From assembly GCA_944325075.1 (NCBI GenBank), contig CALUYU010000009.1, forward strand, positions 1 through 49,780: a stretch of 49,780 nucleotides of DNA. Direction: 5' to 3'. The position numbers and the translations under genes are program-made. Below, one piece after another: positions 9,564 through 49,780 of the stretch. Every line of letters begins with the position of its first letter. The first letter of the stretch is position 1. Origin of the DNA: Candidatus Gastranaerophilales bacterium. Lineage in GTDB: Bacteria; Cyanobacteriota; Vampirovibrionia; Gastranaerophilales; Gastranaerophilaceae. The notes under the pieces were generated by a model. It did no database searches. It was not told the DNA's origin and was given only the letters and a program-made list of their open reading frames with translations.

Positions 9564-10367
9564 ATGAAATTAAAAAAAATTGCAATTGTGTATAATGAAC
9601 AGTTATCTCATTCAATCGAGATAAAAAATAAACTGAAATGTCTGCTGGATGATAAATATAATATTTGTTCGGAATTTTTTGATATTGACAGCCTCAAATC
9701 GGGTGTTGACTTTGTATTTGTTGTGGGCGGCGATGGAACAATTTTGAAAACATCAAGATACTATGCAAAATATGACATTCCTATTTTTGGTATAAATCTT
9801 GGGAGATTGGGCTTTTTGTCCCAGTCATCTGCTGAGGATCTAGAGCATGCGGTAAAAAAAATTCTTGCCGGAGAATATAAAACAGAAGATCGTATAATGC
9901 TCCAATATGGAAATATCACGGCATTGAACGATTTTGTTATAAAAGGATCCTTCACCGGAAGAACTTCAAGGTTTTCTTTGAAAATAAATAATAAAAAAGT
10001 TTGTGATTATCTTGCGGATGGTATAATAATTTCAACCCCGACTGGTTCAACAGCATATGGTTTGTCAGCCGGCGGCCCCGTATTGGTACCGTCACTTGAT
10101 GCTTTTGTTATAGTTCCTATTTGCCCGCATACTCTGACCGCTCGACCATTAGTTGTGCCTGACAGTGAGCTTATAACAATATGTTCAGGGAAAGATGATG
10201 ATAAATATTTTCTCTCAGCTGACGGGCAGGAGTTTTCAGAATTTCATTCTGAAATAAACATTCACAAATCTAAATATACAGTAAAACTGGCACTCCTTGA
10301 TGGAATGGAATTTTACTCGGTTTTGCGCGATAAGCTTCATTGGGGAATTTCTCCCGCCAAGATTTAA
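9564..10367 (+). CDS. nadK: NAD kinase
   Basis: Phosphorylates NAD+ to NADP+ in the cytosol. The protein has 267 residues, normal for the bacterial family. Motifs are VVGGDGTIL (residues about 53-61, the ATP/NAD site), GINLGRLGFL, LNDFVI (the NE/D motif) and DGIIISTPTGSTAYGLSAGGP. No SD precedes the ATG; a -10-like TATATT lies 9 nt upstream, giving at most a two- to three-base leader. It sits between sepF and ftsZ. Confidence 0.93.
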   Translation: MKLKKIAIVYNEQLSHSIEIKNKLKCLLDDKYNICSEFFDIDSLKSGVDFVFVVGGDGTILKTSRYYAKYDIPIFGINLGRLGFLSQSSAEDLEHAVKKILAGEYKTEDRIMLQYGNITALNDFVIKGSFTGRTSRFSLKINNKKVCDYLADGIIISTPTGSTAYGLSAGGPVLVPSLDAFVIVPICPHTLTARPLVVPDSELITICSGKDDDKYFLSADGQEFSEFHSEINIHKSKYTVKLALLDGMEFYSVLRDKLHWGISPAKI

Positions 10368-10524
10368 GCGTTATATTAATTTTTGTTCATAATTCGGCGA
10401 AATTTATTGTACTTTTTTTTTCTTTAAAATAGTATGTTATTATATTATTGATGAAACCTAATGTTAAAATTGGGTGTGAGTTATATAGAAAATCAAGTAA
10501 TATTTAATATAAGAGGTAAAAATC

Positions 10525-11718
10525 GTGGAAAATTTCGTATCAGATATCTTTGCGAAAAAAGATGAAACTCAGAGCAATCCGGCTCCGGGACAAGGACCTA
10601 GAAGTTCTGTTAACCCGACAAATATAAAAGTCGTAGGTGTAGGCGGCGGCGGCGGTAATGCTGTCAACCGAATGATTAAATCAGGTCTTTCAGGGGTTGA
10701 ATTTTGGTTAATGAATACTGATCTTCAGGTTCTAGAATATGGCCAGACTAAAAATAAAATTCAACTTGGTATAAAATCTACAGAAGGTCTTGGTGCAGGC
10801 GGAGACCCTTCAGTGGGAGAAAAAGCAGCTGAAGAAGCTCAGCAGGAAATTACAGAAGCATTAGATGGTGCTGATATGGTATTTATCACGGCTGGTATGG
10901 GCGGTGGTACCGGTACCGGGGCTGCTCCTATTGTTGCTAAGATTGCTAAAGAATTAGGAATTTTAACAATCGCGGTTGTTACAAAACCGTTCTCTTGGGA
11001 AGGCCGTAAAAGACAAAATCAGGCTAACCAGGGTTTGGAAAAATTAAGAGAATCTGTTGATGCTGTAATTGTTGTTCCTAATGATAAATTGCTTCAGGTT
11101 GTTGATAGACAAGTTTCATTAACAGAATCATTCCTTATTGTAGATGAAGTTCTGTTGCGTGGTGTTCAGGGTATTTCTGATATCATTACAATTCCTGGTA
11201 TGATTAACGTTGACTTTGCCGATGTTAAGAGCGTAATGCAAGGTTCAGGATCTGCGTTAATGGGTATTGGCCGTGCACAAGGTGAAGGCCGTGCTGTTAA
11301 AGCAGCTGAAATCGCTATTAACTCTCAGTTGCTTGAATCTTCAATTAATGGCGCAACCGGTGTTATCGTTAATATTACAGGCGGACCTGATATGACATTG
11401 CACGAAATTTCTGATGCGGCCAATATTATCCACGATGCCGTTACAGAAGATGCAACAGTTATCATTGGTACTGCTGTGAACGAAAATATTCAGAATGAGA
11501 TTAACGTAACTGTTATCGCAACTGGTTTTGAAGTTAAGAAGAATATGGATCAGCTTACAAAGGCCGATGTAAAACAATTGAATGCATCGGACTTTTTTGC
11601 CGGAACATCTTTCTCCAGTGGGTTGTCCTCTAATAATGACATTCCAAGAAGAAGTTCAATGCCTCATGTATCTTCAGGATTTTCAAATATTGAAATCCCT
11701 GATTTCTTGAAAAAATAG
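10525..11718 (+). CDS. ftsZ: Cell-division GTPase FtsZ
   Basis: Tubulin homologue that forms the Z-ring. The 397-residue protein has the order variable N-terminus (1-35), GTPase core with [13 protein letters not shown] and the tubulin signature [12 protein letters not shown] (about 126-132), T7-loop region ([11 protein letters not shown]), a Ser/Asn-rich linker, and the conserved C-terminal peptide IEIPDFLKK that binds partners such as SepF. The start is GTG at 10525, with AAGAGG 9 nt upstream. Its own terminator follows, and the repeat island begins directly after. Confidence 0.97.
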
Positions 11719-11742
11719 ATAAATATTCTATATAATAATTCG

Positions 11743-11776
11743 AAAACTTCCGCTCAATATTAGAGTGGAAGTTTTT
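11743..11776 (+). terminator. Rho-independent terminator after ftsZ
   Basis: AAAACTTCCGCTC (11743-11755), loop AATATTA, then GAGTGGAAGTTTTT (11763-11776), with one G-T pair and a T run. Confidence 0.85.
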
Positions 11777-11795
11777 GATTGTAAGAAATATCCAA

Positions 11796-11830
11796 CTTAC
11801 TTTTTTCTTTAGTCAAAAGAAAAAAGTAAG
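11796..11830. repeat. AT-rich hairpin repeat, copy 1
   Basis: CTTACTTTTTTCTTT pairs perfectly over 15 bp with AAAGAAAAAAGTAAG around a 5-nt loop AGTCA. The same stem with other loop bases occurs at 49268-49302 and, slightly shorter, at 49401-49433 and 49491-49523. The flank GCAAAAAAGAAAGCA is shared by all of these copies. Confidence 0.9.
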
Positions 11831-11960
11831 CAAAAAAGAAAGCATTAAGAGTCGAGAGATTTTATTTATCCTTTAAGGACTTAAAACGAATTTTCTTTAG
11901 ATGTAGGTTGGGGTGGAAACCCCAACAAAAAAAAATAATGAATTTCAAGAATTAACCAAC

Positions 11961-12019
11961 TGTCATCCTGAACTTGTTTCAGGATCTAGCCGCCGTTAAA
12001 AATATTCAGTCATCTGCAC
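11961..12019. repeat. ATCCTGAA...TTCAGGAT hairpin repeat, copy 1
   Basis: An 8-bp perfect stem (11965-11972 with 11978-11985) around CTTGT, then a conserved tail containing CTAGCCGCCGT and CATCTGCAC. A second copy lies at 12603-12720 with an insertion, and a third inverted and diverged copy lies near 9461-9504. Confidence 0.8.
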
Positions 12020-12121
12020 ACAAAAAACTAATGTTGGGCTGAAAGCCGAACCTACTTTGGTTTTAATATTATTTCTACGCGTTTCAGACAGCGCAGCGTT
12101 ATTAAGAAGTGCCTCAGGCAC

Positions 12122-12159
12122 CACTTTTTCTTTTTGAGGGCGTGCAAAAAGAAAAAGTG
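12122..12159. repeat. AT-rich hairpin repeat, variant
   Basis: CACTTTTTCTTTTTG pairs over 15 bp with CAAAAAGAAAAAGTG across an 8-nt loop AGGGCGTG. It is related to the hairpins at 11796, 49268, 49401 and 49491 but has a different loop. Confidence 0.85.
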
Positions 12160-12349
12160 AACCGAAAAAGAAAAACTAGCTATTTACCTTCACCGCCTAA
12201 GGCGGTGATTCGCCCCAAAGAAAGACAGAAATGCTAACGCATTTCCACGTTAAGTCTCACTATGGCGCTCATTCCATTCGCGCACGTTCGCCAATCGTTA
12301 AATGTAGGTTGGGCTTTCAGCCCAACATTAAAATTATATTTTCCGCCCC

Positions 12350-12377
12350 TTGAAAATTTGAAAAAATAATGTATAAT
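12350..12377 (+). promoter_or_regulatory. Promoter of G-tract leader, copy 1
   Basis: -35 TTGAAA (12350-12355), a 16-nt spacer and -10 TATAAT (12372-12377). The same boxes and spacer occur at 49574-49601. A strong SD (AAAAGGAGGG, 12384-12393) follows. Confidence 0.7.
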
Positions 12378-12400
12378 AAGAGAAAAAGGAGGGTAAACAC

Positions 12401-12445
12401 ATGGAAAAGTCAAGTATAGTACGGCATACGGGGGGGGGGGGGTAA
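12401..12445 (+). CDS. G-tract leader ORF, copy 1 (14 codons in the present frame)
   Basis: ATG 12401 follows a near-perfect SD with 7-nt spacing and a consensus promoter. As sequenced it encodes MEKSSIVRHTGGGG and stops at TAA 12443, immediately after a run of 13 G (12430-12442). With 12 or 15 G the frame stays open with no stop through 12537 and enters the pilin-like frame ending at 13619. With 14 G it would end at a TAA after about 30 codons. The 14-residue peptide may itself be the product, or the ORF may be the off-state of a phase-variable gene. A homopolymer-length error in the assembly is the main alternative. Confidence 0.6.
   Translation: MEKSSIVRHTGGGG
12430..12442. repeat. Mononucleotide tract, 13 G
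   Basis: An unbroken G13 inside the leader ORF. An identical G13 in the same context lies at 49653-49665. Long G runs in an AT-rich genome are hypermutable by slipped-strand mispairing. Confidence 0.95.
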
Positions 12446-12536
12446 CGAACCTCAAGGGAGACAAGACTTTTGGTCAAAATTATCTTTCTCCAAATTAAAG
12501 TTTTCTGTATCAAACGTAAATAAATCTAATGTTGGG

Positions 12537-13619
12537 GTGAAACCCCAACCTACATTGAACTGTGTGGGACGCATATGGAAAGGGTCTATAAAAGATTCTC
12601 CATGTCATCCTGAACTCGCAGCTCCTCTAGTTGCCGACGAAAAGGAGGCTTACAAGGGAGGGTGCTCGCAGAGTATTTCAGGATCTAGCCGCTGTCAAAA
12701 ATGTTCGACCATCTGCACTGTATCAGGGAAAGAAGTATTAGATAAAGTAGGTTGGGCTTTCAGCCCAACAATGAAATTATGTTGGGGTAGAAACCCCAAC
12801 CTACAAAAGGCTATTTCTTATGCATCTCGGACAGCGCAGCGTCATGTGAGAGGGGACTTAGTCCCCGCGTTCACCCTGGCGGAAGTTTTTTCACCATACT
12901 ACTACTCGCCTCGTAGAATTGCATTTACTCTGGCGGAAGTTTTAATAACCCTGGGCATAATCGGAGTTGTTGCTGCTATGACCCTTCCGGTATTAACAGC
13001 TAATTATAGAAAATCAGTTATAGAGACAAGACTTGCAAAATTTTATTCTGTAATTAATCAGGCAATAATGCAAAGTGAAGTAGAAAACGGAAGTAGATTG
13101 TATTGGAACCGTATGGAGGTCAGAAATCAGGATGATGTTGTTACTACTGAGGGCATATCCCCTAAGGAATGGTATGAAACTTATTTAAAAAAATATCTTA
13201 AAACGCTTAAAGTTGAAGAAAGCGGAACTATTGAAAGGCGGTTTGATGTTTATTTTACAGATGGTAGTATGGTTTCATTTTCAGGTTCCGGCTGGGTATT
13301 TTTCCCATATGCAAAAGATTATGCAACCATAGAAAAAGAATCCGGTGATGGTTTAAGTTTTGAGGATATTGATAGAGAGAGTGCAGGAACTAAATCATTT
13401 AATTTTTTATTCCGAGCTTATGACAGCAGTAATAAATATCTGTATAAAAAAGGTGTTGAACCTTATATCTTAAGGGGTTGGGACGGAACAAGAGAAAGTT
13501 TATTTACTAACAGTGCAATTGGATGCCAAAAAAATGTAAGTAATACACGTGCATATTGTACTGCCTTGATATTTCTCAACGGATGGAAAATTCCTAAGGA
13601 TTATCCGTTAAAATTGTAG
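12537..13619 (+). CDS. Type IV pilin-like (prepilin-family) protein with repeat-derived N-terminal extension
   Basis: The recognisable protein starts at about 12918: RRIA|FTLAEVLITLGIIGVVAAMTLP, a class III-type signal with Ala instead of Gly at -1, Glu at +5 and a long hydrophobic helix. An exported domain of about 210 residues follows and ends LNGWKIPKDYPLKL, paralogous to 1-594. Upstream, the open frame back to GTG 12537 runs through copies of the intergenic repeats (12528-12556, 12603-12720, 12746-12804), so residues 1-about 125 look like translated repeats. AFTLAEV occurs twice, 54 nt apart (12867 and 12921). The true start is unclear: GTG at about 12846 has no SD, and ATG 12401 would need one base fewer in the G tract. 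No SD is seen near 12537. Confidence 0.7.
   Translation: MKPQPTLNCVGRIWKGSIKDSPCHPELAAPLVADEKEAYKGGCSQSISGSSRCQKCSTICTVSGKEVLDKVGWAFSPTMKLCWGRNPNLQKAISYASRTAQRHVRGDLVPAFTLAEVFSPYYYSPRRIAFTLAEVLITLGIIGVVAAMTLPVLTANYRKSVIETRLAKFYSVINQAIMQSEVENGSRLYWNRMEVRNQDDVVTTEGISPKEWYETYLKKYLKTLKVEESGTIERRFDVYFTDGSMVSFSGSGWVFFPYAKDYATIEKESGDGLSFEDIDRESAGTKSFNFLFRAYDSSNKYLYKKGVEPYILRGWDGTRESLFTNSAIGCQKNVSNTRAYCTALIFLNGWKIPKDYPLKL
12603..12720. repeat. ATCCTGAA...TTCAGGAT hairpin repeat, copy 2, with insertion
   Basis: The stem halves ATCCTGAA (12607-12614) and TTCAGGAT (12677-12684) are as in copy 1, but 62 nt instead of 5 nt lie between them. The extra DNA is bounded by a 7-bp direct repeat CTCGCAG (12615-12621 and 12665-12671) and contains a CTCCT/AGGAG stem. 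It lies inside the extended pilin-like reading frame. Confidence 0.75.
12746..12804. repeat. Two head-to-head GTAGGTTGGG hairpin repeats
   Basis: GTAGGTTGGGCTTTCAGCCC (12747 on) is followed, 10 nt later, by an inverted copy ATGTTGGGGTAGAAACCCC with CTAC at the end (12779-12804). Both are read in frame in the N-terminal extension of the pilin-like ORF, giving VGWAFSP and GRNPNLQ. Confidence 0.85.
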
Positions 13620-13655
13620 CTTGATAAAATTTGGCCTTTGTCATAATTTAATTAT

Positions 13656-14813
13656 ATGAGCAAAGATTATAATCATGCGGTAAAAGTATTAACCTCGCAA
13701 GGAAAATTTTATATAAATCTCGGGTTGGAAAGAATAGAAAAAATTCTTTCTATTCTCGGAAATCCTCAGGATAATTTAAAATGTATTCATGTCGCTGGTA
13801 CAAACGGTAAAGGTTCGGTATGTGCTATAATTGCCTCTGTTCTTACTGTATCCGGCAGAAAGACCGGATTGTACACAAGTCCTCATATCTTTGAATACAC
13901 AGAAAGAATTAAGATTGATGGAGAGGATATTTCAAAAGAAAAATTTGCCGAATATGTATTTATGATTAATGAGCTTGCGCAGACGAACAATATTCATTTA
14001 ACGGAATTTGAACTTTTAACGGCTGTTATGTTTAAATATTTTTCGGATGAAAATGTAGATGTAGTTGTTCTGGAAACCGGTCTTGGAGGCCGTTTTGATG
14101 CAACGAATGTAATTAAATCAAACCTTTGTGCCGTGATAACTCATATTGATCTTGATCATACAGACAGACTTGGCAGTACAAAAGATGAAATTGCATTTGA
14201 AAAGGCAGGTATTATCAAGCCCGGCTGTCCGGTTATATCATGTGAAGGCTATGAAGCAATAAAAGATAAAGCTGATGAGTGTAATTCGCTTTTTTTAATG
14301 GTTGCTCCGTTTGAAGACACTTCAGAACTTTCGTTAAAAGGCACTTTTCAACAGGAAAATTTATCCCTGGCCCTCGCTGCAATAAGGCTTGTCTTTCCTG
14401 ATATTCCGCAGGAAGCTGTTCTCAAAGGATTGCATGAAGTGCGTCATCCTTGCAGATTTGAATTTTTTAAGGACAAAATGCTAATTGTCGATGGGGCTCA
14501 TAACCCTAACGGAGCTATTGCCCTTAGAGAGAGCCTTGATCAATATTTCCCGGATAAAAAACGCCGATTTGTATTTGGCTGTTTAAAAACAAAAGATTAT
14601 CCCAAAATGATGGAAATTCTGTTTACTAAAAATGACGAAATTTACTTCTATCATTTTAATAATCCAAATTCCGCGACGTTTGAAGAACTTCAGTCAAAAT
14701 GTAAATATCCTGCAAAAAAATTTGTATCTCTGGACTGTTTTGATATAAAAAATGACACGCTTACTATAGTTTGCGGCTCGTTTTATATGATTAATGAAGT
14801 TCTGCTTTCTTAA
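13656..14813 (+). CDS. folC: FolC: folylpolyglutamate / dihydrofolate synthase
   Basis: Mur-ligase-family enzyme that adds glutamate to folates or joins dihydropteroate to glutamate. The protein has 385 residues. Motifs are the P-loop HVAGTNGKGSV (about 45-55), TSPHI, VLETGLGGRFDATN, ITHIDLDHTDRLGST and VDGAHNPNGA. No SD precedes the ATG; a weak promoter (TTGATA, 15 nt, CATAAT at 13642-13647) ends 8 nt upstream. ruvC follows after 27 nt. Confidence 0.92.
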   Translation: MSKDYNHAVKVLTSQGKFYINLGLERIEKILSILGNPQDNLKCIHVAGTNGKGSVCAIIASVLTVSGRKTGLYTSPHIFEYTERIKIDGEDISKEKFAEYVFMINELAQTNNIHLTEFELLTAVMFKYFSDENVDVVVLETGLGGRFDATNVIKSNLCAVITHIDLDHTDRLGSTKDEIAFEKAGIIKPGCPVISCEGYEAIKDKADECNSLFLMVAPFEDTSELSLKGTFQQENLSLALAAIRLVFPDIPQEAVLKGLHEVRHPCRFEFFKDKMLIVDGAHNPNGAIALRESLDQYFPDKKRRFVFGCLKTKDYPKMMEILFTKNDEIYFYHFNNPNSATFEELQSKCKYPAKKFVSLDCFDIKNDTLTIVCGSFYMINEVLLS

Positions 14814-14828
14814 TAATGGAATTTTGTG

Positions 14829-14834
14829 TATAAT
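14829..14834 (+). promoter_or_regulatory. -10 box for ruvC, leaderless arrangement
   Basis: A perfect TATAAT ends 6 nt before ATG 14841, which puts the expected +1 on the start codon. No clear -35 is seen, and no SD is present. Confidence 0.5.
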
Positions 14835-14840
14835 TTATCT

Positions 14841-15311
14841 ATGAAGATTTTAGGTATAGATCCCGGCATGGCAATAGTTGGTTATTCACTTATTGACTTT
14901 GATGGCAATAACTGCAACCTTTTATCTTCAGGGTCAATTCAAACCCAAAAAGGTGAACGAGAATCTTCAAGACTTTTGGAAATTTACAATGATATGCACA
15001 CTATATTAGAAGAATTTAAGCCCGATGCGGCCGCTATAGAAAAACTGTTTTTTGTGCATAATCAGACAACCGTAATGCCGGTGGCCCACGCCAGAGGCGT
15101 GATTTTAACCGTGTTGGAAAAATTCGGAATACCAATTTTTGAATATACCCCAATGGAAGTGAAAAAAGTTTTAACAGGGTATGGCCGTGCGGATAAAAAA
15201 GAAGTTGAAATGATGGTTAAAATTTCCCTTAATACAGACAATCTTCCGAAACTTGATGATACAGTTGATGCAATCGCAATTGCAATATGTCATTCAAGAA
15301 ATGTTAATTAA
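14841..15311 (+). CDS. ruvC: Holliday-junction resolvase RuvC
   Basis: Endonuclease that cuts Holliday junctions in the RuvABC pathway. From ATG 14841 the protein has 156 residues, normal for RuvC. The motifs carry the four acidic metal ligands: LGIDPG (Asp near 7), AAIEKLFF (Glu), and LDDTVDAIAIAICHS (Asp pair). A GTG five codons earlier (14826) is rejected: it overlaps the -10 box TATAAT and lacks an SD. The C-terminus overlaps the end of the convergent GH57 gene by 4 nt. Confidence 0.93.
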   Translation: MKILGIDPGMAIVGYSLIDFDGNNCNLLSSGSIQTQKGERESSRLLEIYNDMHTILEEFKPDAAAIEKLFFVHNQTTVMPVAHARGVILTVLEKFGIPIFEYTPMEVKKVLTGYGRADKKEVEMMVKISLNTDNLPKLDDTVDAIAIAICHSRNVN

Positions 15312-17539
15312 TCCCTTTTTATATTTAAAAGCATTTCGTTAGGGATGAATACATCGTTAACTCCAACTGCGGCATTAACAAAAACAAATTCCATATTTTC
15401 ATCATGATCAATATCAAGATTTGAAAACGGAATTTTTAAATCAATAACTTTTCCGAATACGGCAGTAATATCTTTTGGATTTTCTAATACCCAAAGATTT
15501 CCGGGTATTGATTTTATTAATCTTACAAGACGTAATTCTCCGTTTCTGACAGATAACTGTAATTCATTATGAAATTTCTGTTTTGTTATTGGTAAAATAT
15601 CTTCTGTTTTATTAATTAGTCTTACCGGAGAAAGTGAATGTTTTTTCGAAGAATTTCTTGTGTAAACATACATTTGATAAACCGCATCATCTCTTGTCGG
15701 ATTTTCAAGAATGTAATTATTCAGGTAAAATCTTAAATAAAAATTGTCTTTGTCGTAGCCAAAGCATATTCTGTCGAAAAGCTTATTTGCTTTTAACACC
15801 GGCCCGTCCGGAATATCAATACATCCGGCATTAAGCCATGAATCATCATCCTGATTGTCAATCCCGTCCAAAACCGGCTGAATTTCTCCGCGTGGGTATC
15901 TTGAAGGTTTAGTAATTGCAGTTAAAAGCGGATCATCCAAATAATCCGGAACATCAAGCCCAAGGTAAATATATATATTCTTTAAATGTTCCCTGAACAA
16001 ATAGTCAAATATATTGTCCCGTCCGGAATCGTTCGGTTCGCCATACCACCAGAACCAGTCGCTTCCTTCACACACAAAGAGTTCTTTTCTCGCAAGATCA
16101 ATATTGGGATGCAGCGGATTTTCTTTGACAAATTTACAAAAATCATCCCTTACATTTTTCAGATATCTCCAGGCAAGATTTTTTATCGGCTCGTCAATCC
16201 AGAGTTTAAAGTTTCGGTTAATCCAGGAGCCTGATTTAATTTTATTTAGCGGTTTATGGTGTTTTTCATTTTCAATATAATCGCTTATAAGAACAGTTTC
16301 AAGACTTTCATCTTCATCAATAAGCTTATAAAGTGTTTTGAGGAAAATTCTGCCGTCCTGAGGGTAGTTTTCCCAGCAGTTTTCTCCGTCCATAGCAATA
16401 GTCAAAAGATGGTTTTCATCAGGAGATGACAGTAATTTGCTCTGCATGACTTTAATTCGTTCATAGAGATCTTTTGCTGCAAGTTCAGAATCATAATTGG
16501 GATATTCAAAACCTATAAGATTTGAAATCATCGCATTTCTAAAAATCATTTTTAAACCGTTTTTATATTCGTATGATTTAAGAAGATGATACGGATCTTC
16601 CAGATATCCTTTGAAATCTCTTATGAACTCAAAGTTTATTGAGGCAGACAAAATCCCCTCATCAGAAATAGTCCACTCAAGTCCAAGCTCCTTAAACAAA
16701 TCCAGCTCTTTGGGACTTACACAATGTTCTGAGGGCCAAATTCCTTTAGGCCGTTTGCCGATAAGTTCTTCTATCCGGTCTAATGCTGTTTGCGTTTGAA
16801 TTTTTGCATCAAGTGACATTTTTAAATCAGAAGGCAGACCTTCCGTATTTGTAAGTTTTATCGATTTGATATCAAGTAAAATCGGTAAAATCGGGTGGTA
16901 ATAAGGACTTGTTGTAACTTCAACTTTCCCTCTTTTAACATATTCTCTGTATGCCGGAATAATTTTTCTAATAATTTCTCTTTGTATATCTATTATATTT
17001 TGCCGGTCTTTAAGAGAATAATTTTTCCCTTTTTTAATTAATTTTTTCAATTTGGGGAATTGTTCTGCATACTCAGGATCAAACCAAACAAGGTTAAACA
17101 AAGCCATTAAGTCCGAATATTCCTGATCAGTAAAAGCGTTTATGTCTACTTCAGAAAAAGATTGGCGCTTTTGAAATAACTTATTATACTGTGGATAAGG
17201 ATAAATCATTGTTTTATAATTTGCATCAAAAAAATTGTTTAGAATAAATTCCTTATCCTCATCATTTAGCTCCTCAACCGGGGTAACAGTTAATCTTGAA
17301 TGCAGATCATGCGCGTTTTTTTCACCATAGTCAATTAACGCATCAAGAAGCACAGGCACAAGGTTTACATTAACCTTTATATCCTTGAATTCGTCAACAA
17401 TTGTTATCATATCAAGATAATCCTTAACCGCGTGCAGACGAACCCATGCCATTAAATAATCGCCATCTGGCGACAACTGGTAAACCGGCTGATGCATGTG
17501 CCAATAGAATGCTATGGATAATTTTTTTGTCTGACTCAT
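15308..17539 (-). CDS. Glycoside hydrolase family 57 alpha-glucanase-like protein
   Basis: GH57 enzymes cleave or transfer alpha-glucan (glycogen/starch). The 743-residue protein has HMHQPVY near the N-terminus, VTTSPYYHPILP, the nucleophile region GIWPSEHCVS and the acid/base region AMDGENCWENYP. This set fits the amylopullulanase-like branch. The C-terminal 200 residues look like a beta-rich accessory domain. No signal peptide is present, so it is likely cytosolic. ATG 17539 is preferred over 17542 because a -10 GATAAT (17551-17546) ends exactly 6 nt before it. It is divergent from a ROK kinase, which suggests breakdown of storage glucan followed by phosphorylation. The exact substrate is not determined. 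Confidence 0.88.
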   Translation of the reverse strand: MSQTKKLSIAFYWHMHQPVYQLSPDGDYLMAWVRLHAVKDYLDMITIVDEFKDIKVNVNLVPVLLDALIDYGEKNAHDLHSRLTVTPVEELNDEDKEFILNNFFDANYKTMIYPYPQYNKLFQKRQSFSEVDINAFTDQEYSDLMALFNLVWFDPEYAEQFPKLKKLIKKGKNYSLKDRQNIIDIQREIIRKIIPAYREYVKRGKVEVTTSPYYHPILPILLDIKSIKLTNTEGLPSDLKMSLDAKIQTQTALDRIEELIGKRPKGIWPSEHCVSPKELDLFKELGLEWTISDEGILSASINFEFIRDFKGYLEDPYHLLKSYEYKNGLKMIFRNAMISNLIGFEYPNYDSELAAKDLYERIKVMQSKLLSSPDENHLLTIAMDGENCWENYPQDGRIFLKTLYKLIDEDESLETVLISDYIENEKHHKPLNKIKSGSWINRNFKLWIDEPIKNLAWRYLKNVRDDFCKFVKENPLHPNIDLARKELFVCEGSDWFWWYGEPNDSGRDNIFDYLFREHLKNIYIYLGLDVPDYLDDPLLTAITKPSRYPRGEIQPVLDGIDNQDDDSWLNAGCIDIPDGPVLKANKLFDRICFGYDKDNFYLRFYLNNYILENPTRDDAVYQMYVYTRNSSKKHSLSPVRLINKTEDILPITKQKFHNELQLSVRNGELRLVRLIKSIPGNLWVLENPKDITAVFGKVIDLKIPFSNLDIDHDENMEFVFVNAAVGVNDVFIPNEMLLNIKRD

Positions 17540-49573: not shown

Positions 49574-49601
49574 TTGAAAAAATAAAGAAATAGTATATAA
49601 T
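49574..49601 (+). promoter_or_regulatory. Promoter of G-tract leader, copy 2
   Basis: -35 TTGAAA (49574-49579), 16-nt spacer, -10 TATAAT (49596-49601), then SD AAAAGGAGGT. Identical layout to copy 1 at 12350-12377, although the spacer sequence differs. Confidence 0.7.
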
Positions 49602-49623
49602 AAAAGAAAAAGGAGGTAAATAT

Positions 49624-49668
49624 ATGGGAAAGTCAAGTATAGTGCGGCATACGGGGGGGGGGGGGTAA
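49624..49668 (+). CDS. G-tract leader ORF, copy 2 (14 codons in the present frame)
   Basis: Encodes MGKSSIVRHTGGGG in the present frame, then TAA at 49666 directly after G13. It differs from copy 1 by one residue. With 12 or 15 G the frame stays open to the window end through the sequence GVKP. The downstream gene is outside the window; by analogy it should be another pilin-like gene. Confidence 0.55.
   Translation: MGKSSIVRHTGGGG
49653..49665. repeat. Mononucleotide tract, 13 G (copy 2)
   Basis: Same length and context as 12430-12442: CAT-AC before it and TAACGAAC after it. Confidence 0.95.
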
Positions 49669-49763
49669 CGAACTTCAAGGGAGACAAGGGTTTTTGTCAA
49701 AATTACCTTTCTCCAAATTTTTCACCAAAACAAAGTTTTCTGTATCAGATGTAAATAAATATT

Positions 49764-49780
49764 ATGTTGGGGTGAAACCC
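49764..49780. repeat. GTAGGTTGGG hairpin repeat, cut by the window end
   Basis: ATGTTGGGGTGAAACCC, the first half of the repeat seen complete at 12528-12556, in the same position relative to the leader. Confidence 0.8.

Follow-up and report, generated by a model that had tools for sequence, protein, structure and literature searches.

A poly-G tract in a prepilin leader of a Candidatus Gastranaerophilales bacterium, a probable default-off translational switch of a type IV pilin-like gene

The Opa genes of Neisseria carry a pentamer repeat inside the signal peptide. The locus described here is similar in that a repeat tract lies in the signal peptide of a multi-copy surface family whose copies would switch singly, but the Opa genes use a pentamer repeat and a Sec signal peptide and are far fewer. 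The palindromic elements of Rickettsia sit in frame inside protein-coding genes. In-frame palindromic repeats are also found within the ORFs studied here, although the sequences are unrelated and the repeats here lengthen a leader whose removal is expected, which would explain their tolerance. A large stock of divergent pilin sequences is shared with the Neisseria pilE/pilS system. However, pilS copies are themselves silent and donate sequence to one expression locus, whereas each copy with the leader type of our locus (F1) has its own promoter and start. Strains of Campylobacter jejuni have a phasome of 18-39 variable genes of many kinds, mostly with G9 or G10 tracts, and the share of ON genes in a draft set is near the neutral expectation (PMC6321876). 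These poly-G loci resemble ours in that a G run about as long switches the frame ON or OFF, and in that surface genes are affected and the genome is AT-rich. In contrast, about 85 of the 100 tracts examined here serve pilins only, the bias to OFF is strong, and tract length is typical of the genus (G10, G11 or, for F1, G13). The Neisseria pathogens harbor 15-18 poly-G tracts, including that of pilC, which is likewise a frame switch within the ORF of a pilus gene (PMC5953494). Two pilus-associated genes are concerned there, while here the tract lies in the prepilin leader of pilin-like subunits, many per genome. Poly-G contingency genes as such are already well known from Campylobacter and Neisseria. 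The novel aspects here are the lineage, how many such loci belong to one gene family, the placement in a prepilin leader, the default-off bias and the expansion of the leader by repeats. The open-access literature yielded no earlier report of poly-G pilin switches in Gastranaerophilales, an uncultured gut lineage known mostly through metagenomes; papers on it mention pili but do not describe such switches.

The window, the whole stretch of 49,780 nucleotides that was analysed, belongs to a genome of 2.26 Mb in 107 contigs. The nearest relative of its FolC is found in CALUYR010000022.1 (86% identity), and FolC relatives come from Candidatus Gastranaerophilales and related MAGs. The promoter, Shine-Dalgarno sequence, ATG, G13 tract and TAA lie exactly where the initial annotation had placed them. 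The features are as follows:

12350..12377, plus strand: sigma-70-type promoter TTGAAA-N16-TATAAT (TTGAAA 12350-12355, TATAAT 12372-12377), read from the sequence, with a spacing common to sister cassettes
12387..12392, plus strand: Shine-Dalgarno sequence AGGAGG, found by pattern search
12401..12429, plus strand: leader start, ATG 12401 and codons MEKSSIVRHT, an F1-type leader read from the sequence
12430..12442, plus strand: G13 tract, proposed to act as the frame switch (ON at G12, OFF at G13)
12443..12445, plus strand: TAA at which the leader frame closes as sequenced (OFF)
12443..12923, plus strand: expanded leader (linker) of 160 codons, stop-free in the pilin frame
12924..13619, plus strand: mature type IV pilin-like protein of 231 aa, FTLAEVLITLGIIGVVAAMTLP..., plus stop
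49574..49780, plus strand: second copy of the promoter-leader cassette, G13 at 49653-49665 (OFF), truncated by the contig end

The G13 tract forms codons 10-14 of the leader frame, being a homopolymer of at least nine G in the 5' part of the ORF. As had been claimed, loss of one G opens the frame of ATG 12401 for 405 codons through the pilin to 13619 (stop 13617-13619), while the frame has 14 codons at G13 and 32 at G14. A chance origin of the run was ruled out by dinucleotide shuffling and by the tract repertoire of the genome: 0.42 occurrences of G8 were expected in the window and 12 overlapping ones were found, all from the two G13 tracts. No Rfam matches were detected at 10000-16000 of the window, and the leader pattern was not found in viral contigs. 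Dense palindromic repeats (TGTTGGG..CCCAAC, TCATCCTGAAC..TCAGGATCTAG) occupy 11890-12340, between ftsZ and the cassette. The same repeats are present at 12525-12870, inside the leader, and are stop-free there.

The encoded protein has the N-terminus of a prepilin, (G/A)/FTxxE followed by a hydrophobic segment, here in the form A/FTLAEVLITLGIIGVVAAMTLP. Across 40 relatives F1, L3, A4 and T2 are invariant, E5 is kept in at least 90%, and residue -1, Ala in the window copy, is Gly or Ala in most. In Pfam the mature pilin matches PF20318 (DUF6613) with 73.8 bits against a cut-off of 24.3, and PF07963 (N_methyl) with 20.1 bits, just below the cut-off of 21.2; the NCBIfam pilin models also score below their cut-offs. 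The AF2 model (pLDDT 92) has a helix at residues 3-55 and then strands, that is, a long N-terminal helix plus a sheet. A Foldseek search against PDB gave nothing useful. The structure matches in VIA-align are weak, but a pilin tops the list (3sok FimA, Z 3.6; 2hi2, Z 2.9) and the pilin structures align to the model from residue 1. The orthologue in the nearest named species is 81% identical. Genes for a prepilin peptidase and for MutS are present in the genome, and loss of mismatch repair was rejected as a driver of slippage because of the latter.

The genome harbors 128 tracts of at least nine G. The pilin start FTLAE[VI]L[IV]TLG is present in 140 of its genes, while the reversed control pattern gave 0. 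We fetched and examined 100 of the 128 tracts, and the counts of leader types refer to these 100. The type of the window, F1 (MEKSSIARHT-G-NEPQGRQ), accounts for 49 of them, F2 (MLKFNHSADFPDR-G-ARLHLKP) for 10 by a strict rule and F3 (MQNPIIARISLI-G-QTKGLKP) for about 25; these three types make up the pilin-associated tracts, and the remaining tracts are unrelated or relics. The window promoter-leader has 73 DNA matches in the genome, of which about 40 are of the full type. The F1 sister cassettes are not promoterless silent cassettes like pilS, as a promoter TTGAAA/TTGCAA-N16/17-TATAAT and an ATG were found in 42 of 43. Many contigs of the genome stop within promoter-leader cassettes, which therefore seem to break the assembly.

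The F3 tracts are arranged differently. Each controls an upstream ORF about 75-90 codons long. In most copies the stop codon of this ORF falls within a span from 8 nt ahead of the pilin start to 23 nt past it (e.g. AAAAGGAGGTATTTTATGA, L141), and the pilin is a separate gene with its own SD/ATG (L141:1500-4100 on the reverse strand, L116, L132, L161 and L174). This layout is as expected for translational coupling and suggests a second use of the G switch. Three F3 copies are fused through to the pilin and form an intermediate toward F1/F2.

In F1 and F2 the linker between tract and pilin ranges from 45 to 182 codons, and its length modulo 3 is constant across all open copies of each type. It is wholly open in the pilin frame in 39 of the 46 copies with a pilin downstream (31 of 36 F1, 8 of 10 F2). 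The open linkers comprise 4,750 codons with 0 stops in the pilin frame and 581 stops in the other two (455 in F1, 126 in F2). The window linker (12443..12923) follows this rule, with 0 stops in the pilin frame and 11 and 8 in the others. The leader had been suspected to encode a regulator of initiation instead; that idea was rejected for the window copy, as its linker is open only in the pilin frame, and fits the F3 type. Linkers consist largely of palindromic repeat elements that also occur outside cassettes. Stops in the same frame are found in 139 of 217 copies of the GTTGGG element outside linkers versus 0 of 35 inside and in frame, and in 6 of 30 copies of the TCAGGATCT element outside versus 0 of 26 inside. 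No third-position excess was seen in the leader codons (160/113/139, for the ungapped first 20 codons only), so that this test gives no sign that the identity of the leader residues matters. Such a lack of codon-position conservation is consistent with a segment that is cut off. The linker of the window is mostly palindromic repeats plus one remnant FTLAEVF unit. Units of FTLAEVFSPYYxSPRR are repeated ahead of the true pilin start in L157 (in tandem), in L056 and at 12860-12925 of the window, and these units may be what is left of earlier pilin starts that piled up in the leader.

If the leader were a decayed or unrelated upstream ORF, the pilin would start alone and the tract would be irrelevant. 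GTG, TTG and ATG codons are indeed present in the pilin frame of the window (12537, 12555, 12564, 12771 and 12846), and in F3 copies the pilin does have an SD-ATG start of its own, downstream of an ORF under tract control. However, each of these codons lacks an SD, and a search of the pilin frame 3' of the window tract found no start codon with one. In addition, 39 linkers are stop-free in the pilin frame only, and in the relatives the tract sits in the sole possible leader. Independent initiation is thus very improbable. In Neisseria, the guanine quartet of pilE is a proposed quadruplex trigger of gene conversion, and the G runs of this genome may likewise be imagined mainly as DNA elements, such as quadruplexes starting gene conversion among pilins, with a secondary effect on the frame. 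The many near-identical promoter-leaders and the remnant FTLAEV units do suggest recombination between copies, but a recombination signal has no need of a strict one-frame rule, and F1 copies have promoters and starts of their own, unlike silent pilS cassettes. We give this explanation hardly any weight.

Of 241 genomes surveyed within the order, 49 contain a tract followed by FTLAE, with up to 67 cases per genome, and the reversed pattern gave 0; among 292 sampled genomes of the phylum, no case was detected beyond the order. We compared 30 loci, each from a different genome, and at every one of them a single tract class yields the pilin, with leaders of 16-29 residues in which the tract is read as GGG or GGGG. 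Examples are MKKLLNRNL-GGGG-NLKLA/FSLAEVLITLG (L213), MKNIAILEKT-GGG-QTRFLSGKG/FTLAEVLITLG (L200) and MKELLNSATR-GGG-RNLSSIRA/FTLAEVLVTLG (genome G171). The locus of the window, upstream of folC, has a tracted pilin in five other species, all OFF, and tract-free short leaders in further species, e.g. MKKAFTMAEVLIT or MQKGFTLSEILIT. The window leader is not the short cytoplasmic leader of type IV pilins, of up to about 30 residues. The relatives resolve the caution that the initial annotation had urged about its length of 174 residues. Since the relatives carry the tract inside leaders of 16-29 residues, the length looks derived, and it is best read as an expansion, in this lineage, of an ordinary prepilin leader by in-frame palindromic repeats. 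From the ATG across the tract and on to FTLAEVLITLG, a single frame remains open in dozens of paralogues and relatives, and this comparison strongly supports the view that the pilin's reading frame is determined by the tract.

The sequence data, taken as a whole, make it likely that the window locus is a phase-variable, default-off prepilin leader working as a translational ON/OFF switch, OFF as sequenced. The earlier proposal of a phase-variable pilin in the OFF state stands for the setting of the frame and for the OFF state at G13, while slippage in the population, a change of tract length at the DNA level, is what we infer. Lengths do differ in consensus assemblies, on which all tract-length comparisons here rest, covering paralogues and related species. 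In the genome of the window F1 copies range from G11 to G15, and 7 of 31 open F1 copies, but 0 of 8 open F2 copies, are ON (G12 for F1) as assembled. Among related species L242 is G13 and OFF while L243 is G12 and ON, and the pair L253/L256 differs as G11/G10.

Across 88 loci in four genera, 60 need +1, 25 need -1 and 3 are ON as assembled. Three ON loci against an expectation of one third gives P = 6e-12, a value to be read with the paralogues not being independent, and the 30 relatives compared above, with one locus per genome, are less extreme (6 of 30 ON as assembled). Within genus g6 the tracts are mostly exactly G10 (91 of 101 in genome G119, 37 of 39 in genome G171), and in these two genomes the scatter is below that of a freely drifting contingency set. 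In genus g10 the typical length is G11, with both the +1 and the -1 OFF phases present at G11 and never ON. An assembly artefact fixing one length was rejected, as the G10 mode recurs in apparently independent genomes (G171, G213, G022). The two OFF phases at the same G11 in g10 exclude a constant miscall as the cause of uniform length. In genome G171, tracts that lack a pilin (L292-L299) show almost without exception the same length of exactly G10; some of them have relic leaders (SGGGAxLSF...) followed by a stop. Uniformity of length need therefore not reflect selection on the frame only. On the simplest interpretation, mutation keeps the tracts at a length typical of the lineage, and the leaders are maintained a single slip away from ON.

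A uniform out-of-frame state would likewise be explained by slippage at the RNA level, with the DNA out of frame and some mRNAs or ribosomes slipping on the G run, through polymerase slippage or frameshifting, to give a constant low level of every pilin. This would suit the 85 of 88 loci that are off frame by exactly one, the nearly fixed tract length within genome and genus, and the use of both phases but never phase 0 by g10; with only 3 of 88 loci ON, expression might not depend on ON states in the DNA. On the other hand, ribosomal frameshifting should prefer one direction and both are found, tract lengths differ between related species, the F1 copies of one genome vary in length with some of the open ones ON, and the fixed length extends to tracts without a pilin. 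An RNA-level switch is thus unlikely, although less so than the two alternatives above.

In the DNA-level switch, transcription from the promoter at 12350-12377 and initiation at ATG 12401 would be independent of tract length. At G13 the ribosome would stop after 14 codons and no pilin would be made. Replication slippage to G12 (or G15) would bring leader and pilin into one frame. The prepilin peptidase would then cut the resulting precursor, about 405 residues long, at A/FTLAEV and so remove its 174-residue leader. We infer this cleavage, but a leader of this size before a prepilin peptidase site far exceeds the usual length. The set of loci in the genome, each with its own start and tract, would by default be one slip from ON, so that of its many pilins a given cell would display just a few. 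This leads to a tentative proposal, which we hold as plausible but somewhat short of even chances: dozens of pilins are silent per genome and a random few are shown transiently per cell, with mutation pressure holding tract length and selection keeping leaders one base out of frame. If true, this would be antigenic variation at the scale of protozoan surface-coat repertoires, achieved by single-base slippage in prepilin leaders. The biological use of the switches may lie in adhesion, or in evasion of immunity or phages. The switch set would be unusually large for phase variation within one gene family and would be located directly in the pilin-like subunits. Its default-off layout also predicts how few pilins a cell shows. 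As the consensus assembly is OFF, automatic annotation likely labels such genes as truncated, start-less or pseudogenes.

Some tracts were observed in other genes. In genome G123, a G9 tract lies at 2610 on the minus strand of L309, where the +1 frame opens an ORF of 1,610 residues; in the genus of this genome, tracts may also control other large proteins. L311 of genome G077 has a G10 tract at 2357 on the plus strand, within what looks like the gene of a thiamine-pyrophosphate enzyme (GINTLTGVAGAYMDSVPMLIISGQ); this gene, not a pilin, may be phase-variable. Finally, L295, L298 and L299 of genome G171 encode a second family, of long proteins (500-670 aa) that start with GYTLAE[VI]I[VT]VMLIIA and have G10 in the leader.
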